Shown: positions 24,605-57,098 of the stretch, one piece after another
Layout: each line of letters begins with the position of its first letter
Numbering within the stretch: position 1 is the stretch's first letter
Assembly: GCF_900107585.1 (NCBI RefSeq)
Contig: NZ_FNQM01000013.1
Location: 1 to 64,000 of the forward strand
DNA length: 64,000 bases
DNA from: Rubrimonas cliftonensis
GTDB taxonomy: Bacteria; Pseudomonadota; Alphaproteobacteria; Rhodobacterales; Rhodobacteraceae
Direction of reading: 5' to 3'
Translations under genes and position numbers: made by a program
Notes under the pieces: model-generated
The model's input: only the letters and a program-made list of their open reading frames with translations
The model's database searches: none
What the model was told of the DNA's origin: nothing

Positions 24605-25606
24605 ATGAGCGACGCCGATCCCCTTGAGCTTTCCATCGCGACCTGGGACCATGACCGTACCGTTCCCGTGCTGGACGGCCGCGTTCCGGTCGCAGGCGTT
24701 GCGGTCAGTCCCACGATCCTGCCGACGACGCAGCTCTTCGCCATCGCGGCGCAGGAGGCGCGCTTCGACGTCACCGAGTTCTCGCTCTCGACACACATCC
24801 TGCAGGTCGCGCGCGGGGAGCCGGCCTACACCGCCGTGCCGGCCTTCGTCTCCCGCGCTTTCCGGCACAACGGCTTCTACCGCCGCAAGGGCTGCGGGAT
24901 AGAGAGCCTCGCCGATTTCCGGGGCCGCGCCGTCGGCGTGCCCGAATACCAGATGACCGCCGCGCTCTGGATGCGCGGGATCATGGCGGACGACTACGAC
25001 GTGGCCGCGCATGAGGTCGCGTGGCGCAACGGCGCGCTCGACGCTGGCGTGCGTCGCGAGCGGCTCGCGCTGACCCCGCCGCCGGAGCTGTCGATCACGC
25101 CGATCGAGGACGGCGACACGCTGCAGGCCATGCTGCTGCGCGGCGAGATCGACGGGCTTCTCGCCCCGAAGCCGCCGCAGGCCTTCCTCGACGGCGACGA
25201 CCGCATCGAGCGGATCTTCCCCGACTTCGAGGCCGCCGAGCGCGAGTGGAACGCCCGCACCGGGTTCTTCCCGATCATGCATGTCATCGCGGTGCGCCGG
25301 ACGCTGGCCGAGGCCCATCCTTGGCTTCCGCGCGCGCTCTACGAGGCTTTCGGGGCTGGCCGCGACCTGGCGCTCGAGCGGCTGAAGGACGTCTGGCTAG
25401 GCTCCGCGAACCGGCTCAGCCTGCCCTGGCTGAACGCCTCCGTCGAGCGCACGCGCGCCGCCCTGGGCGAGGACTGGTGGCGCTACGGCTTTGCCGGCGC
25501 GCGCGCGGAAATCGAGGCGATGTGCCGCTACTCCGTTCAGCAGCACCTCTCGCCCCGCCGGGTCACGCCGGAGGAGCTGTTCCATCCCTCGGTGCTGGAG
25601 ACGTGA
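24605..25606 (+). CDS. 4,5-dihydroxyphthalate decarboxylase-like (Pht5-type) protein
   Basis: A 333-aa cytoplasmic protein with a periplasmic-binding-protein-like fold but no signal peptide. LELSIATWDHDRTVPVLDG at the start, then FDVTEFSLSTHILQVARGE and LADFRGRAVGVPEYQMTAALW, are characteristic of proteins annotated as Pht5 or as ABC binding proteins. Some family members decarboxylate aromatic acids, and most are untested. AAGGA lies about 9 nt before ATG 24605; a TTG at 24542 in frame lacks support. It is 155 bp after the LysR gene and may be its target. The following 450 bp are non-coding. Confidence 0.75.
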   Translation: MSDADPLELSIATWDHDRTVPVLDGRVPVAGVAVSPTILPTTQLFAIAAQEARFDVTEFSLSTHILQVARGEPAYTAVPAFVSRAFRHNGFYRRKGCGIESLADFRGRAVGVPEYQMTAALWMRGIMADDYDVAAHEVAWRNGALDAGVRRERLALTPPPELSITPIEDGDTLQAMLLRGEIDGLLAPKPPQAFLDGDDRIERIFPDFEAAEREWNARTGFFPIMHVIAVRRTLAEAHPWLPRALYEAFGAGRDLALERLKDVWLGSANRLSLPWLNASVERTRAALGEDWWRYGFAGARAEIEAMCRYSVQQHLSPRRVTPEELFHPSVLET

Positions 25607-26060
25607 AACCGCTGCGATTTCAGGGAGCGGCTTCTGTTTAGAACGGCCGGAATGCCCGAATTTCAGCCTTTCGCCCTGCCGCCCTGCTGAGCGATGAGGG
25701 CCGCGCCCTCCCTCGGGTGGGCGTTTCGCGACGGCTGTACGGCGTGGTTCATGGCGCAAACAACTTCATCGGTTCAGCGGGTTGCGCCGCTGCAGCGCGC
25801 CCTCCCTTGGGGGGTGAGCCGCGCCCGGAAAACCCTCCGGGGGAGGGTTTTCAACGGCGAACGGGCGGAACCCCGGCGGGAGGGCGCGGCCCGTGCTGGT
25901 CGCATGGGCCAAGGGTCCAGCGGCGCGCCCTCAGGCCACCGGCGACCTTGGCGCCAACCCGGTCATTGGCCAGCACACATTGCCCCCGCAGCGGAAACAA
26001 CTGCGCAGCTGCGGCGCACCGCATCTGGCGTTCGGCTGCGTCTTGCGCCATAGATGTCGT
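25607..26060. other. 454-bp non-coding gap with multiple inverted repeats
   Basis: I find no convincing gene. A near-repeat of CGCGCCCTCCCT(C/T)GGG appears around 25701-25717 and again at 25796-25812. GGCGCAA and TTGCGCC (25753-25788 region) form a 7-bp arm pair around a 22-nt loop. The striking element is the nested stem-loop at 25796-25888, listed separately. The recJ promoter must lie in the last 150 bp. Confidence 0.5.
25796..25888 (+). ncRNA. Nested four-stem hairpin, possible structured RNA
   Basis: Four co-axial stems can be drawn. Outer stem: 25796-25806 with 25878-25888 (11 bp, perfect). Second: GGGGT 25811-25815 with ACCCC 25870-25874. Third: CGCCCG 25822-25827 with CGGGCG 25862-25867. 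Apical: GAAAACCCTC 25828-25837 with GAGGGTTTTC 25843-25852 (10 bp, CGGGG loop). About 32 of 93 nt on each side are paired with only small loops, far beyond chance expectation. It does not match the layout of 6S, SRP, RNase P or tmRNA. It could be a regulatory RNA, a palindromic repeat element, or a recJ leader. Strand is unknown; plus is given arbitrarily. Confidence 0.35.
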
Positions 26061-27851
26061 ATGTTGGATGCAGCGGCATATCTTGGGGTGGCGCGCTCGG
26101 TCGGCGGGCGGCGCTGGGTTGGTCCGAGCGCCGCGGTGGAGCGGATGGGCGCCGCAATCGCCCAGAGGGCTGGCGTGACGGAGATCGTCGGCCGCGTGCT
26201 CGCGGCGCGCGGCGTGGCGCCGGAGGAGGCGGGAGCCTATCTCGCGCCCTCGCTCAAGGCGCTGATGCCGGACCCCTCCACCCTGCGCGACATGGACGCC
26301 GCCGCCGAGCGCCTCGCCCGCGCCGCGCGCGATGGCGAGCGGATCGCGGTGTTCGGCGACTACGACGTGGACGGCGCCTGCGCCTCGGCCATGCTGGCGC
26401 GCTGGCTGCGCCATTTCGGCGTCGGCGCCACGCTCTACATCCCCGACCGCATCGACGAGGGCTACGGTCCGAACGACCCCGCGATGGCGGCGCTGGGCGC
26501 GGTGCACGACCTCGTGATCTGCGTCGACTGCGGCAGCCTCAGCCATGGGCCGGTCGCCGCGGCCCGCGCCGCGGGCGCCGACGTGCTGATCGCCGACCAC
26601 CATCTCTGCGGCGAGACGCTGCCGGAGGCGCTGGCGGTGGTGAACCCCAACCGGCAGGACGAGACGGCGGGGCTCGGCCCGCTCTGCGCGGCGGGCGTGA
26701 CGTTCCTGCTGATCGTCGCGGCCAACCGCGCGCTGCGGCGCCTCGGCGTCGCGACGCCCGACCCGTTGCCGCTGCTCGACCTCGTGGCGCTGGCGACCGT
26801 CGCCGATGTCGCCCCGCTGACCGGGCTCAACCGCGCCTTCGTGCGGCAGGGGCTGAAGGTGCTCGCCGCGCGCGGCAACGCGGGCCTGCGCGCGCTCGCG
26901 GACGTCGCCCGGCTCAGCGGCCCGCCGGGATCGTTCCATCTAGGCTACATGCTCGGCCCGCGCATAAACGCCGGCGGGCGCGTCGGCGAGGCGTGGCTCG
27001 GCGCCCGGCTGCTCTCGACCGAGGACGTCCGCGAGGCCGAGGCCGTCGCCGCGCGGCTGGAGGCGCTGAACGAGGAGCGCCGCGCCATCGAGGCGGAGGT
27101 TCTCGCCCAGGCGCTCGCGCAGGCGGAGGCGCGCGGCGCCGACGGCCCGCTGGTCTGGGCCGCCGGGCCGGGCTGGCACCCCGGCGTCGTCGGCATCGTC
27201 GCGAGCCGCCTGAAGGAGCGCTTCAACCGCCCCGCCGTCGTGATCGGGCTGGACGCGGCCGGCGACGGCAAGGGTGAGGGCAAGGGCTCTGGCCGCTCGA
27301 CGCAGGGCGTCGACCTCGGCTCGTCGATCGCCGCGCTGGCGCGCGAAGGGCTGCTGCTGAAGGGCGGCGGACACCGCATGGCGGCGGGGCTGAGCGTGGC
27401 CGGCGACATGGTCGAACCTGCGATGGCGCGGCTGGCGGAGCTGCTGGCGCGGCAGGGCGCCGGCCGCGAAGGCCCGTCGGACCTCCGGCTCGACGGCGCC
27501 GTGGGCCCCGGCGCGGCGACCGTGGCGCTGGCGGAGACGCTGGAGCAGGCGGGCCCCTGGGGCGCCTCGGCCCCCGCGCCGCGCTTCGCCGCCCCCGCCG
27601 TGCGCATCGCCTCGGCGCGCATCGTCGGCGCCGGCCATGTGGCGCTGCGGCTGAGCGACGGCGCCGCGAGCCTCGACGCCATCGCCTTCGGCGCCCTGGA
27701 CGCGCCGCGGCCCGGCGCCGACAGCCTCGGCGACTTCCTTCTCGGCCGCGCGGGGGAGCGCGCGCACCTCGCGGGCCGGCTGATGCTCGACGACTGGAAG
27801 GGCCGCCGCCGAGTAAAGCTGCAGCTCGACGACGCAGCGCCGGCGTTCTGA
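26061..27851 (+). CDS. recJ: Single-stranded-DNA-specific exonuclease RecJ
   Basis: A 596-aa 5'-3' exonuclease acting in recombinational and mismatch repair. DHH-domain motifs are present: FGDYDVDGACAS (motif I), VICVDCGS, and IADHHLCG (motif III with the Asp-His-His). The DHHA1 domain carries GGGHRMAAG. The C-terminal OB-like region (about 480-590) completes the usual length. ATG 26061 gives the expected start (YLGVARSVGGRRWV near residue 7); the open frame upstream covers the non-coding hairpin region. A Gly/Lys/Ser-rich insert near 405-416 is an oddity. It converges on purL with only 7 bp between stops. Confidence 0.95.
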   Translation: MLDAAAYLGVARSVGGRRWVGPSAAVERMGAAIAQRAGVTEIVGRVLAARGVAPEEAGAYLAPSLKALMPDPSTLRDMDAAAERLARAARDGERIAVFGDYDVDGACASAMLARWLRHFGVGATLYIPDRIDEGYGPNDPAMAALGAVHDLVICVDCGSLSHGPVAAARAAGADVLIADHHLCGETLPEALAVVNPNRQDETAGLGPLCAAGVTFLLIVAANRALRRLGVATPDPLPLLDLVALATVADVAPLTGLNRAFVRQGLKVLAARGNAGLRALADVARLSGPPGSFHLGYMLGPRINAGGRVGEAWLGARLLSTEDVREAEAVAARLEALNEERRAIEAEVLAQALAQAEARGADGPLVWAAGPGWHPGVVGIVASRLKERFNRPAVVIGLDAAGDGKGEGKGSGRSTQGVDLGSSIAALAREGLLLKGGGHRMAAGLSVAGDMVEPAMARLAELLARQGAGREGPSDLRLDGAVGPGAATVALAETLEQAGPWGASAPAPRFAAPAVRIASARIVGAGHVALRLSDGAASLDAIAFGALDAPRPGADSLGDFLLGRAGERAHLAGRLMLDDWKGRRRVKLQLDDAAPAF

Positions 27852-30202: not shown

Positions 30203-32767
30203 TTGCTGGACGACGAGGCCTGCCGCGAGAAACTGGCGATCATCGCGGTGGGCGCGGCGGCTGCGGCTTTCGGCGCGACCGGCGTCGCCCTGCCCGCAGG
30301 GGTCGGGGAGGCCGCGACGGGCGGCGCCGGCCTGCTTTCCAGATTGAGCGGCAAACGGGCAAGCGACCGCGACGCGGTCATCACCCGACTGTCGGCCGAA
30401 CTCTGCGACGACTGGCGATCATGGGCTGAGAGCGAGACAGGCGCCGGCGAGCAGGCTCGCACCGGCGCCCGCACCGCCTTCGCGCTGGTGATCGACCGGC
30501 TGCACCCCGCGCCCGCCGAGATCGTCGGCCGCCGGCTCGACGCGGGGGCGCTGGCCCGCGCAATGCTCGCCCGAGCCCAGACCGCGCTGCCCGTCGCCTA
30601 CGCCGACCCCGACCCGCGCAACGCCGAGGCGCATCTGGCCCGCAGCTTCCTGCTGCACGTCTGCACGCGCGCCTACGCCCGCCTGCTCGCCAACCCGGAC
30701 TTCACCAGCCGCCTCGCCCCCGACCTCTGGCGCGGCCTGTTCGAGGCGGTGGACGGGCTGCGCGAGACGCTGGACGCCCTGCCCGCCGCCATCCGCCGCG
30801 AGGTCGAGGCGGCGGTCGAGCGGCTGCGCGGCGAACTGGGCGCGCGCGACCGCCTCATCCTCGGCTTCATCCGCACCGCTGCGCAGCGGGAGGTCGCGCC
30901 CGACCAGATCGAGGCGACCCTGTTCGAGATGGCCGTGGAGTGGCGCGCGGCGCGCGGACGGGCGGACGGCGGCGCGCTGTCGAACCTCACGCCCGACCTT
31001 GGCCCCCTGCGCGCCGACGCGCAGGCCGCGCATGACGCCGACGACGTGGAGCGCTTCTGGATCCTCGTGACCGAACTGGAGCGGCGCGAGGCGGCGGCGC
31101 TGACGGCGCTGGCGGCGCGGCGCCGCGACATCGAGGCCGAGGAGGAGGCGATGACCGCCGCCCATGTCGCGACCAAGCGCCGCGCCATCGCCGCCGCCCT
31201 CTCCCGGCTCGACGCGTCGGGCGCCGCGACGCGCATTGCGGAGATCATCGCGCTGGAGACCCCCGACGCCTCGGCGCGCTTCGCCGCGCTGCGGGCGAGA
31301 TGGGACGAATGGCATATGCGGGGCCGCGACCAGGGCCTGAACCTCGATCTGGCGGTGGCCGCCGACCTCGCCCGCATCGCCCATGCGCAGGCGGTCGACG
31401 CCGACCAGCGCGGCGCCGCCCTGAACGATCTAGGCGTCTCGCTCCAGACCCTCGGCGAACGCGAGCCGGGAACCGAGCGGCTGGAGCAGGCCGTCCAGGC
31501 CCACCGCGCCGCGCTGGAGGGGCGCACCCGAGAGCGCGTCCCCCTCGACTGGGCCATGACCCAGATGAACCTCGGGACCGCGCTCACGACCCTCGGCGCG
31601 CGCGAGGCGGGAACCGAGCGGCTGGAGCAGGCCGTCGAAGCCTACCGCGCCGCGCTCGAGGAATCGACACGCGAACGCACCCCCCTCGACTGGGCCATGA
31701 CCCAGATGAACCTCGGGACCGCGCTCAGGATCCTCGGCGAGCGCGAGCCGGGAACCGAGCGGCTGGAGCAGGCCGTCGAAGCCTACCGCGCCGCGCTCGA
31801 GGAATGGACACGCGAACGCACCCCCCTCGACTGGGCCAGCACTCAGATAAACCTCGGGAACGCGCTCGCGGCCCTCGGCGAACGCGAGCCGGGAACCGAG
31901 CGACTGGAGCAGGCCGTCCAGGCCTACCGCGCCGCGCTGGAGGAGCGCACCCGAGAGCGCGTCCCGCTCGACTGGGCCAAGACCCAGATGAACCTCGGGA
32001 CCGCGCTCAAGACCCTCGGCGAACGCGAGGCGGGAACCGAGCGGCTGGAGCAGGCCGTCGAAGCCTACCGCGCCGCGCTGGAGGAGCTTGCCCGAGAGCG
32101 CGTCCCCCTCTACTGGGCCATGACCCAGATGAACCTCGGGAACGCGCTGCAAGCCCTCGGCGCGCGAGAGTCGGGAACCGAGCGGCTGGAGCAGGCCGTC
32201 GAAGCCTACCGCGCCGCGCTGGAGGAATACACCCGCGAGCGCGTCCCCCTCGACTGGGCCAGGACCCAGATGAACCTCGGGATCGCGCTCTGGACCCTCG
32301 GCGAACGCGAGCCGGGAACCGAGCGGCTGGAGCAGGGCGTCCAAGCCTACCGCGCCGCGCTGGAGGAATACACCCGCGAGCGCGTCCCCCTCGACTGGGC
32401 CAGGACCCAGATGAACCTCGGGATCGCGCTCTGGACCCTCGGCGAACGCGAGCCGGGAACCGAGCGGCTGGAGCAGGCCATCAAAGCCTACCGCGCCGCG
32501 CTGGAGGAATGGACCCGAGAGCGCGTCCCCCTCGACTGGGCCAACGCGCGCGGCAATCAGGCGGTGGCGATGGTCTCGCTGGCCGAGCGCGCCGGCGACG
32601 CGGCGTTGGCGGCGCGGGCGGCGGCGCAGTTGGCGGAGGCGGCGGCGGCGCTGCGCGCGGGCGGGCATGGACCGTGGGCCGCGACCCTCGAGCGCCAGCT
32701 TCCCGCCGCCCGCGATCTCGCGGCGCGCCTCGCCGCCCCCCTGTCGCCCGGCGCGACGCCCGGCTAG
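30203..32767 (+). CDS. Tandem-repeat tetratricopeptide (TPR) protein
   Basis: An 854-aa protein. Residues 1-55 hold an Ala/Gly-rich hydrophobic stretch (about 8-35) that could insert in or lie on a membrane. Residues 60-405 are helical and Arg/Ala/Glu-rich without a domain I recognise. Residues of about 408-783 are eight 47-aa units of the type [16 protein letters not shown]...ERVPLDWA, a TPR variant also known next to various effector domains in other bacteria. An Ala-rich C-terminal segment ends it. The start is inferred as TTG 30203 from GGAAAGGGG about 8 nt upstream; no ATG fits. No enzyme motif is visible, so a scaffold role is most likely. It is divergent from purL. Confidence 0.75.
31424..32551 (+). 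repeat. Eight tandem 141-bp units in the TPR gene
   Basis: Unit starts fall at 31424, 31565, 31706, 31847, 31988, 32129, 32270 and 32411, exactly 141 bp (47 codons) apart. Units 7 and 8 are nearly identical at the DNA level, differing mainly near their ends. Unit 1 is the most diverged, and a ninth decayed unit follows 32551. The in-frame period and high DNA identity indicate recent expansion by recombination or slippage. Confidence 0.95.
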
Positions 32768-55577: not shown

Positions 55578-57098
55578 ATGATGGAAGGAATGCTGCAGGG
55601 GCTCATGACGGCGATCTCGCCGTTCAACATCGTCATGGTGGTGTCGGGCTGCATCATCGGGACGCTGATCGGCATGCTCCCCGGCCTTGGGCCGATGTCG
55701 ATCATCGCCATCATGATCCCCATCGCCATCTCGATCGGCGATCCGTCCTCGGCGCTGATCCTGCTGGCGGGCGTCTATTACGGGGCGATCTTCGGCGGCT
55801 CGACGTCGTCGATCCTCATCAATGCGCCGGGCGTCGCCTCGACCGTGGCGACGGCCTTCGACGGCTACCCGATGGCGCGCAGGGGGCAGGCCGGCAAGGC
55901 GCTGACCATCGCGGCAATCGCGTCGTTCTGCGGCGGCACCATCGGCGCGATCCTGCTGATGGCCTTCGCGCCGGCGCTCTCCTCCGTCGCGCTGCTGTTC
56001 CACTCCGCGGAGTACTTCGCGCTGATGGTGCTGGGCCTCTCCGCCATCGCCGCCTTCGCGGGGTCGGGCAGCGTCGGCAAGGCGCTGATGATGACCGTGC
56101 TGGGGCTGATCATGGCGACCGTGGGCGAGGCCGCGCTCTTCAACGCGCCGCGCTTCACCGGCGGCGTGCAGGAGTTCCAGTCCGGCTTCAGCTTCATCAC
56201 GCTGGCCATGGCGATGTTCGCCCTGCCCGAGGCGCTGTATCTCGTGCTCGACCCCAACCGCTCCGGCAAGGCGGGCGAGGGCGGCGGCGAGATCAGGGAC
56301 ATGCGCATCACGCGCGAGGAGGCCTGGACGATAGCGCCGGTGATCGGGCGGCAGTCGCTTCAGGGCTTCTTCATCGGCGTTCTTCCCGGCGCCGGGGCGA
56401 CGATCGCCTCCTTCCTCGGCTACGCCGTGGAGCGCAACCTCGCCACCAAGGAGGAGCAGGCGGAGTTCGGCAAGGGCTCGATCAAGGGCCTCGCCGCGCC
56501 GGAATCGGCCAACAACGCCGCCTGCTCGGGCAGTTTCGTGCCGCTGCTGACGCTTGGCATCCCCGGTTCGGGCACGACGGCGATCCTGCTCGGCGCGCTG
56601 ATGTCGCTCAACGTCTCGCCCGGGCCGCGGCTGATGATCGACGAGCCGGACATCTTCTGGTCCGTCATCATCTCGATGTATCTCGGCAATCTCGTGCTGC
56701 TGATGCTGAACCTGCCGCTGATCCCCTACATCGCGAAGCTGCTGGCCATACCGCGCAACTACCTGATTCCGTTCATCCTGTTCTTCACCCTGATGGGCAG
56801 CTACATCGGCCAGAACAACGCGACGGAACTGCTGATCCTCGTCGGGCTGGGGCTGGCGGCGACGGTGCTGCGCTTCGCGGACTATCCGCTGGCGCCGCTG
56901 CTGATCGGGTTCATCCTTGGCCGGATGCTGGAGGACAACTTCGCCCGCGCGATGCAGCTCTATGACGGGTTCGGCTTCATCCTGGAGCGGCCGATGACCA
57001 TCGGCCTGCTGGTGATCGCCACGGCGCTGGTGCTGCTGCCGTCCTACCGCGCGCGTCGGGCGCGGCTGCTGCGCAAGGGCGTGGCGCAGGGCGACTGA
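55578..57098 (+). CDS. tctA: Tripartite tricarboxylate transporter, large permease
   Basis: A 506-aa permease with about 11-12 helices. IGTLIGMLPGLGPMSIIAIMIP and YYGAIFGGSTSSILINAPG are the first TctA signature, and the repeat LPGAGATIASFLGYA plus LTLGIPGSGTTAILLGAL is the second. It forms the ion-coupled channel with TctB. It is the last gene of the operon; the DUF1194 gene converges on it. Confidence 0.95.
   Translation: MMEGMLQGLMTAISPFNIVMVVSGCIIGTLIGMLPGLGPMSIIAIMIPIAISIGDPSSALILLAGVYYGAIFGGSTSSILINAPGVASTVATAFDGYPMARRGQAGKALTIAAIASFCGGTIGAILLMAFAPALSSVALLFHSAEYFALMVLGLSAIAAFAGSGSVGKALMMTVLGLIMATVGEAALFNAPRFTGGVQEFQSGFSFITLAMAMFALPEALYLVLDPNRSGKAGEGGGEIRDMRITREEAWTIAPVIGRQSLQGFFIGVLPGAGATIASFLGYAVERNLATKEEQAEFGKGSIKGLAAPESANNAACSGSFVPLLTLGIPGSGTTAILLGALMSLNVSPGPRLMIDEPDIFWSVIISMYLGNLVLLMLNLPLIPYIAKLLAIPRNYLIPFILFFTLMGSYIGQNNATELLILVGLGLAATVLRFADYPLAPLLIGFILGRMLEDNFARAMQLYDGFGFILERPMTIGLLVIATALVLLPSYRARRARLLRKGVAQGD

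Follow-up and report, generated by a model that had tools for sequence, protein, structure and literature searches.

A hairpin upstream of recJ in Rubrimonas cliftonensis is probably a nest of dispersed palindromic repeats

The hairpin upstream of recJ

We analysed a 64,000-nucleotide stretch of the R. cliftonensis genome, referred to here as the window. A 454-bp gap (25607-26060) separates an ORF ending at 25606 from recJ, and a 93-nt hairpin lies in this gap (Table 1). The recJ product matched TIGR00644 with an E value of 2.6e-141 and 471.6 bits (cut-off 396.9). The gene probably starts at the ATG at 26061, which would leave 172 bases between the hairpin and the start codon. The hairpin had been proposed in a preliminary description made from the letters alone, and folding confirmed it. 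The RNA minimum free energy (MFE) was -65.5 kcal/mol on the forward strand (z -4.35) and -64.2 kcal/mol on the reverse strand (z -5.67), and none of 200 dinucleotide shuffles was as stable on either strand. Of 1,279 segments of 93 nt taken at 50-base steps through the window, 2 folded at least as stably. The stability is near the top for the window, yet it is not unique. Four stems of 11, 5, 6 and 10 bp had been described. The outer 11-bp stem stood, the innermost stem was 11 bp around a GGG loop and not 10 bp, and the two middle stems differed somewhat in the MFE structure. The reported echo of the outer arm is real, being an exact GAGGGCCGCGCCCTCCCT.

Table 1. Features of the locus, with coordinates in the window
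Feature	Position	Strand	Basis
Outer element A with its inserts	25654..25955 (about)	+	Alignment with simpler copies; GCGCGGA-like terminal inverted repeats
Left arm of A (the echo)	25696..25713	+	Exact GAGGGCCGCGCCCTCCCT; same arm in other copies
Insert B, 94 bp, hairpin-ended	25714..25807	+	A+B core of 139 bp against A core of 45 bp
93-nt hairpin	25796..25888	+ and -	MFE folding, shuffles
Insert C, GTGA-tagged stem-loop, core of the 93-nt hairpin	25811..25875	+	Match to covariance model R1, insert length, covariation
Right arm of A	25878..25892	+	Sequence and copies
recJ (neighbour, outside the repeat)	26061..27851	+	TIGR00644; probable start codon

No T-run or U-tract of an intrinsic terminator follows the stem; the sequence reads GCCCGTGCTGG next on the forward strand. 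A comparison with known RNA families had been suggested; neither the hairpin and its surroundings in the window nor C in 20 searched loci reached the gathering score of any Rfam family. The lone sub-threshold match near the hairpin was to a human lncRNA region (22.3 bits, gathering score 70). A regulatory RNA of recJ is not our first choice because the composite was found at other places in the same genome. The same-genus genome G001 offers no usable empty site at recJ, since its upstream gene is not homologous.

Composite architecture of the repeat

The genome of R. cliftonensis was searched with positions 25690-25900 (211 bp). The genome-wide search for copies that had been proposed thus returned 29 partial or full matches, of which 3, the window copy included, were near-full composites. 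Parts 1-124 and 186-211 of the query adjoin each other in other copies, and part 125-185 is therefore an insert. Comparison of the copies resolved an outer element (A) and two inserts (B and C). The core lengths between the arms of A were additive in this genome: 45 bp for A (L018 and L020), 107 bp for A+C (L005 and L012), 139 bp for A+B without C (L004, L006-L009, L011, and L010 by orientation comparison) and 202 bp for A+B+C (L002, L003, and the window copy, likewise assigned by orientation comparison). C occupies 62-63 bp as an insert in A, and its window copy scored 85.7 bits with model R1. The simplest copy of A (L018) is 146 bp as a whole. The ends of A were taken from 17 loci of this genome that were oriented and compared; they are approximate, and degenerate in the window copy. 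MITEs have terminal inverted repeats and a target-site duplication; A has short GCGCGGA-like inverted ends, and no duplication was seen by eye. Two loci (L014 and L017) are shortened mosaics of the composite. Two A+B copies stand side by side at C20:144154 and 144311 (the L010/L013 region, 144154-144421) and form a natural tandem of A.

The nesting of the stems reflects the lodging of one repeat within another's tip. In the outer stem, the right arm of B (25797-25806) supplies the 5' side and part of the right arm of A (25878-25888) the 3' side. The empty tip of A contains no TGA, and all five C-in-A copies use one junction, within a base or two. Of 81 copies of C, 7 were flanked by inverted repeats of at least 8 bp; re-dealt flanks gave 3.5 on average and 9 at most. 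The R. cliftonensis genome, with its empty copies, is thus the only one in which C is clearly nested in palindromes. The preliminary description had offered the hairpin as a structured RNA or a palindromic repeat. The second part is borne out by the copies in the same genome and by the inner module in other genera; the first finds neither an Rfam match nor a U-tract. Its caution that many identical copies would mark a simple dispersed repeat largely applies to A and B, and C adds compensatory changes between genera, of the kind that it had proposed to look for in relatives.

Structure and covariation of C

C combines a GTGA tag and a foot with a short helix that varies in sequence but is compensated; its other parts are GCCCGG, which is unpaired, and a stem of 10-11 bp tipped by TCC-NNN-GGA. 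In the foot, GTGAG lies opposite CGAAC, giving G-C, T-A, a tandem G.A/A.G and G-C. After exclusion of 8 of 93 rows that were too short at a foot, the exact GTGA...GAAC, which can pair as G-C, T-A, G.A and A.G, was present in 64 of 85 rows; the tetranucleotide GTGA was found in 71 and GTAG in 1. The basal helix alternates between G-C and C-G, and a frequent variant of it has G.A and A.G as the first two pairs (15 and 12 of 93 distinct rows).

An alignment of 27 copies from 24 genomes showed 89.8% of cells paired, against 81.1% after shuffling. Both sides had changed in 11 pairs (45 such cells), and none of 500 shuffles was as high on any of five measures. Shifting the partner by 1-3 columns lowered pairing to 35-50%. 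An automatic consensus fold of the alignment retained only 14 of the proposed pairs. The two inner helices held 17 G-U and 8 A-C cells against about 1,240 Watson-Crick cells, counted after 110 rows were reduced to 93 distinct ones and one misaligned pair was excluded; 17 to 8 is too weak to serve as a test of strand. A pseudoknot between GCCCG and CGGGC can pair in 84.3% of cells, with covariation in 1 of 5 pairs. It is missing from the extra-hairpin elements displayed outside the family and may be lineage-specific.

Distribution of C across genomes

The 211-bp query had matches in at least 45 of 198 genomes of the family, including that of R. cliftonensis. By hand count, the best match in the other 44 was C in 30, A or A+B in 13 and mixed in 1. 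Few candidates were scored per genome in this survey and in that of the class (289 genomes), so the counts are lower bounds. Eight genomes selected for earlier matches were counted with the covariance model at E<=0.1, and all eight had matches: 41 in G111 (Rhodobacter sp. SW2), 28 in G067, 17 in G138, 12 each in R. cliftonensis and G045, 9 in G011, 7 in G088 and 4 in G149, a few near-threshold ones being the same place on the opposite strand or possibly chance. The 12 matches in R. cliftonensis comprised 7 at 46 bits or more and 5 at 34-38 bits, and at two strong sites (C20:185983 and C79:82846) C lies outside A. Tandem arrays of C with a spacing of 60-63 bp were found in G067, G081, G128 and G149.

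Among named genomes, an exact degenerate pattern hit 17 stretches; 15 stood under names recognised as Rhodobacteraceae, and the other 2 were MAGs labelled only Alphaproteobacteria or Proteobacteria. Four plasmid records contained C (Rhodobacter capsulatus SB 1003, Rhodobacter sp. CZR27, Sagittula stellata and Leisingera sp.), and the covariance model confirmed all four with 58-88 bits; in R. capsulatus SB 1003 the plasmid is pRCB133. None of the four plasmid copies was directly at an annotated stop. The phages searched gave no match. C did not appear to be described in the titles, abstract openings and passages of the literature covered, among which subscription journals were thinly represented.

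C has structural relatives in other alphaproteobacterial families. At least 12 of 289 genomes in the class sample had model matches at E<=1e-4, and at least 9 of these were outside the family. Two genomes of one family (G337 and G435, family f5) had at least 8 matches each, and the four loci displayed bear an extra hairpin. At three extra-hairpin loci (L251, L258 and L261) the tag TGA ends an open frame of at least 260 codons; L248 was left out because its open frame has only 20 codons. An exact GCCGGATCAG-type pattern was too strict as a measure of spread, with a match in 1 of 289 genomes. At L250, L253 and L254 (match start 1501), which belong to three genomes of three alphaproteobacterial families, a C-like element lies in frame within a TrbE-like ORF of 706-759 codons. 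The L253 piece matched NCBIfam TrbE (E 2.2e-36), and within the matched part these ORFs exceed Sphingomonas paeninsulae trbE by about 51 bp net. One further in-frame element lies inside a 349-codon ORF, which brings the C-like loci in long ORFs to 4 among those inspected. The ORF at L249, which may be ArdC-like, matched no NCBIfam family.

C at stop codons

In 35 of the 81 copies of C counted, an open frame of at least 200 codons terminates at the tag TGA; the corresponding numbers for the two alternative frames are 9 and 5. This test counts open frames and not annotated genes, and the 35 include L005, a copy nested in A. The remaining 46 copies, the window copy included, are not at such a stop. 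The 81 copies were made up of 78 of 110 model matches and 3 from the class survey; the 32 matches excluded were the same place under a second identifier, further tandem units and a few weak or partial ones. TAA or TAG replaces TGA in two copies (L133 and L143). The genes with C at the stop include recG, parE (in R. cliftonensis), phoB, lepA, dnaJ, glyS and carB, named by NCBIfam on 150-residue pieces with scores below the whole-protein cut-offs, as expected for pieces. Because some stop sites are common to two genera (phoB, L129/L137; recG, L136/L142), the copies lack independence, and some may have been retained vertically.

RecG ends in Gly in 28 of 29 relatives (30 loci were returned from 61 genomes), and ParE of the family ends in DV in 18 of 18 (21 of the loci from 31 genomes), as in the genes with C. 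The end of the protein is thus unaltered by the element. At L198 the contig stops just past the stop codon, so an absence of C is not visible there. In Rhodobacter sp. SW2 only 2 of 20 inspected copies end a long open frame, which speaks against a strict rule; this comparison covered 62 rows, namely 40 fetched stretches and 22 earlier loci. Six intergenic SW2 copies (L119, L120, L122, L123, L125 and L126) share an AT-rich motif near CAAATATCC(T)CGGGG just upstream, and the opposite strand of this motif would give a weak T-tract.

The carB stop was compared in the genus of Defluviimonas denitrificans DSM 18921 (G011), where 22 loci were sampled and 21 remained after removal of the unreadable L290. 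An element lies exactly at the stop in 8 of 21 genomes and is absent in 13, and the protein ends in LQG in all 21. Three loci carry subtype C (L269, L272 and L274), two carry the subtype GCCGGATC(A/G)G (L276 and L277), and three carry the extra-hairpin subtype (L270, L275 and the less clear L286). The same two subtypes occur in reverse order at L272 and L277. In four species without the element, the end of carB already reads GGGGTGA (L271, L273, L279 and L285), whereas the empty tip of A has no TGA; the TGA may thus be contributed by either the element or the target. With three subtypes and a reversed order at one stop, a single ancient insertion is hard to fit; the pattern fits repeated arrival at a preferred site.

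Comparison with known repeats

Passages in PMC6006769 describe Y1 transposases as handling REPs as single-stranded hairpins through the foot tetranucleotide. The GTAG REPs (RAYT/TnpA-REP), as portrayed in passages of PMC3733652, have, like C, an imperfect hairpin with a fixed tetranucleotide at its foot, many copies and a location near gene ends, and their termini often supply the TAG stop of flanking ORFs. C is likewise a dispersed imperfect palindrome, with 4-41 matches per genome at E<=0.1. However, its tag is GTGA and not GT[AG]G, its length of 62-65 bp is greater, its foot has a tandem G.A, and the Y1 transposase is missing from 12 of 14 genomes. No PF01797 match was found in R. cliftonensis, and 2 of the 14 genomes had one; a control was positive in 5 of 14 named genomes. 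Mobilisation of C by a RAYT is therefore unsupported.

The CGTC REPs are, in passages of PMC3733652, mostly alphaproteobacterial and given as having no known dedicated transposase, and in both respects they are like C. They differ in having an 8-9-bp stem and a 4-5-nt loop, whereas C has a 10-11-bp upper stem, a 3-nt loop and a separate basal helix. The tag CGTC, TGTC or CCTC was at neither foot of the C alignment, and a CGTC-type pattern had no match in the window. We read C as belonging to neither the GTAG nor the CGTC REPs. Rickettsia palindromic elements are described in passages of PMC10969869 as in-frame palindromes of about 150 bp in unrelated alphaproteobacterial proteins, and some of them are CGTC REPs (PMC10969869, PMC3733652). 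The element in frame in TrbE is comparable. They differ in their length and in that an in-frame ORF site is unusual for C (4 C-like loci among those inspected).

The MIRU of mycobacteria are presented in passages of PMC12548453 as small, apparently mobile repeats at gene junctions with little effect on genes, which insert at start codons and carry a coupled ORF. C, too, is often found at gene ends. As a comparison, 35 of its 81 copies coincide with an ORF-ending TGA. Supply is said to have reported in 1997 that the target of MIRU is TGA (DTGA).

Origin and possible function of the hairpin

We consider it probable, at roughly 0.7, that the hairpin is an intergenic nest of dispersed palindromic repeats and that C, in the tip of A, is a non-autonomous mobile stem-loop resembling REPs. 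Several points are demonstrated: dispersal and nesting, covariation, the arrays in tandem, the excess of frame-ending TGA copies and the several subtypes at one stop in one genus. No clean polymorphic insertion of C with defined ends and no target-site duplication was found among the loci compared. C would move as a folded strand recognised by a trans-acting enzyme, and it would prefer G-rich sites at TGA; insertions that survive at the end of a gene would thus keep the upstream protein unaltered. Since R. cliftonensis has no Y1 transposase and the tag is different, this enzyme is probably another one acting in trans, or one that was lost. In mRNA, C may form a hairpin at the stop codon, and by analogy with E. 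coli REPs may stabilise the transcript or slow ribosomes. The copy in the window lies away from any stop codon, and we expect it to be a passenger between two genes with no specific function. As a tentative extension, C and its structural relatives might form a third, GTGA-tagged superfamily of alphaproteobacterial REP-like mobile palindromes, moved by a non-Y1 enzyme and with a target preference for TGA stops, in which the tandem G.A of GTGA with the CGAAC foot could be the recognition device.

C could instead be mainly a functional 3'-UTR RNA element (an mRNA stabiliser, a terminator or a ribosome-stalling hairpin) that is kept for its work at gene ends, with dispersal being secondary. The compensatory changes, the sense orientation of C at stops, its presence at the same genes (recG and phoB) in two genera and the surplus of G-U over A-C in the inner helices all agree with this, and passages in PMC12306157 report that REPs of E. 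coli affect translation when they lie within 15 nt of a stop. We nevertheless regard it as unlikely. More than half of the copies (46 of 81), that of the window among them, lie away from such stops, others lie inside A and inside ORFs, and one site, the carB stop, holds different subtypes, while G-U pairs are so rare beside the Watson-Crick pairs that they are at most weak evidence of strand. Less probable still is an origin in which C is not self-mobile and is exchanged between C-bearing A and gene ends by homologous recombination or gene conversion. Within A, a single nesting event followed by copying would be enough, because the junction is common to all five copies; the mosaics L014 and L017 show deletion or recombination, and the lack of a target-site duplication is compatible with it. 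However, such exchange accounts poorly for C alone at C20:185983 and C79:82846 and across genera, for three subtypes at the carB stop, and for C in A both with and without B.

If the reading of C as a mobile stem-loop is correct, small mobile hairpins have settled on the stops of core genes (recG, parE, phoB, lepA and carB) across a large family of bacteria, and no transposase is known for them. Pairs of genes that differ in having a hairpin at the stop would then be a natural panel for the effects of 3'-end hairpins on mRNA stability and translation termination, and the clear question would be which enzyme moves C. As regards recJ the finding is an ordinary one; it is a lead to a widespread palindrome associated with stop codons. 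For the window it means that strong nested stems may be a repeat inside a repeat.

Other observations in the window

A match to RF02646 (Ruegeria cis8 sRNA) was found on the reverse strand at 56622-56749, with 87.3 bits in Rfam against a gathering score of 58. Positions 31440-32543 hold about 7.8 tandem copies of a 141-bp unit within a 943-codon ORF, in which ALEE...LDWA...MNLG motifs recur; we take this array to resemble TPR-type repeats.
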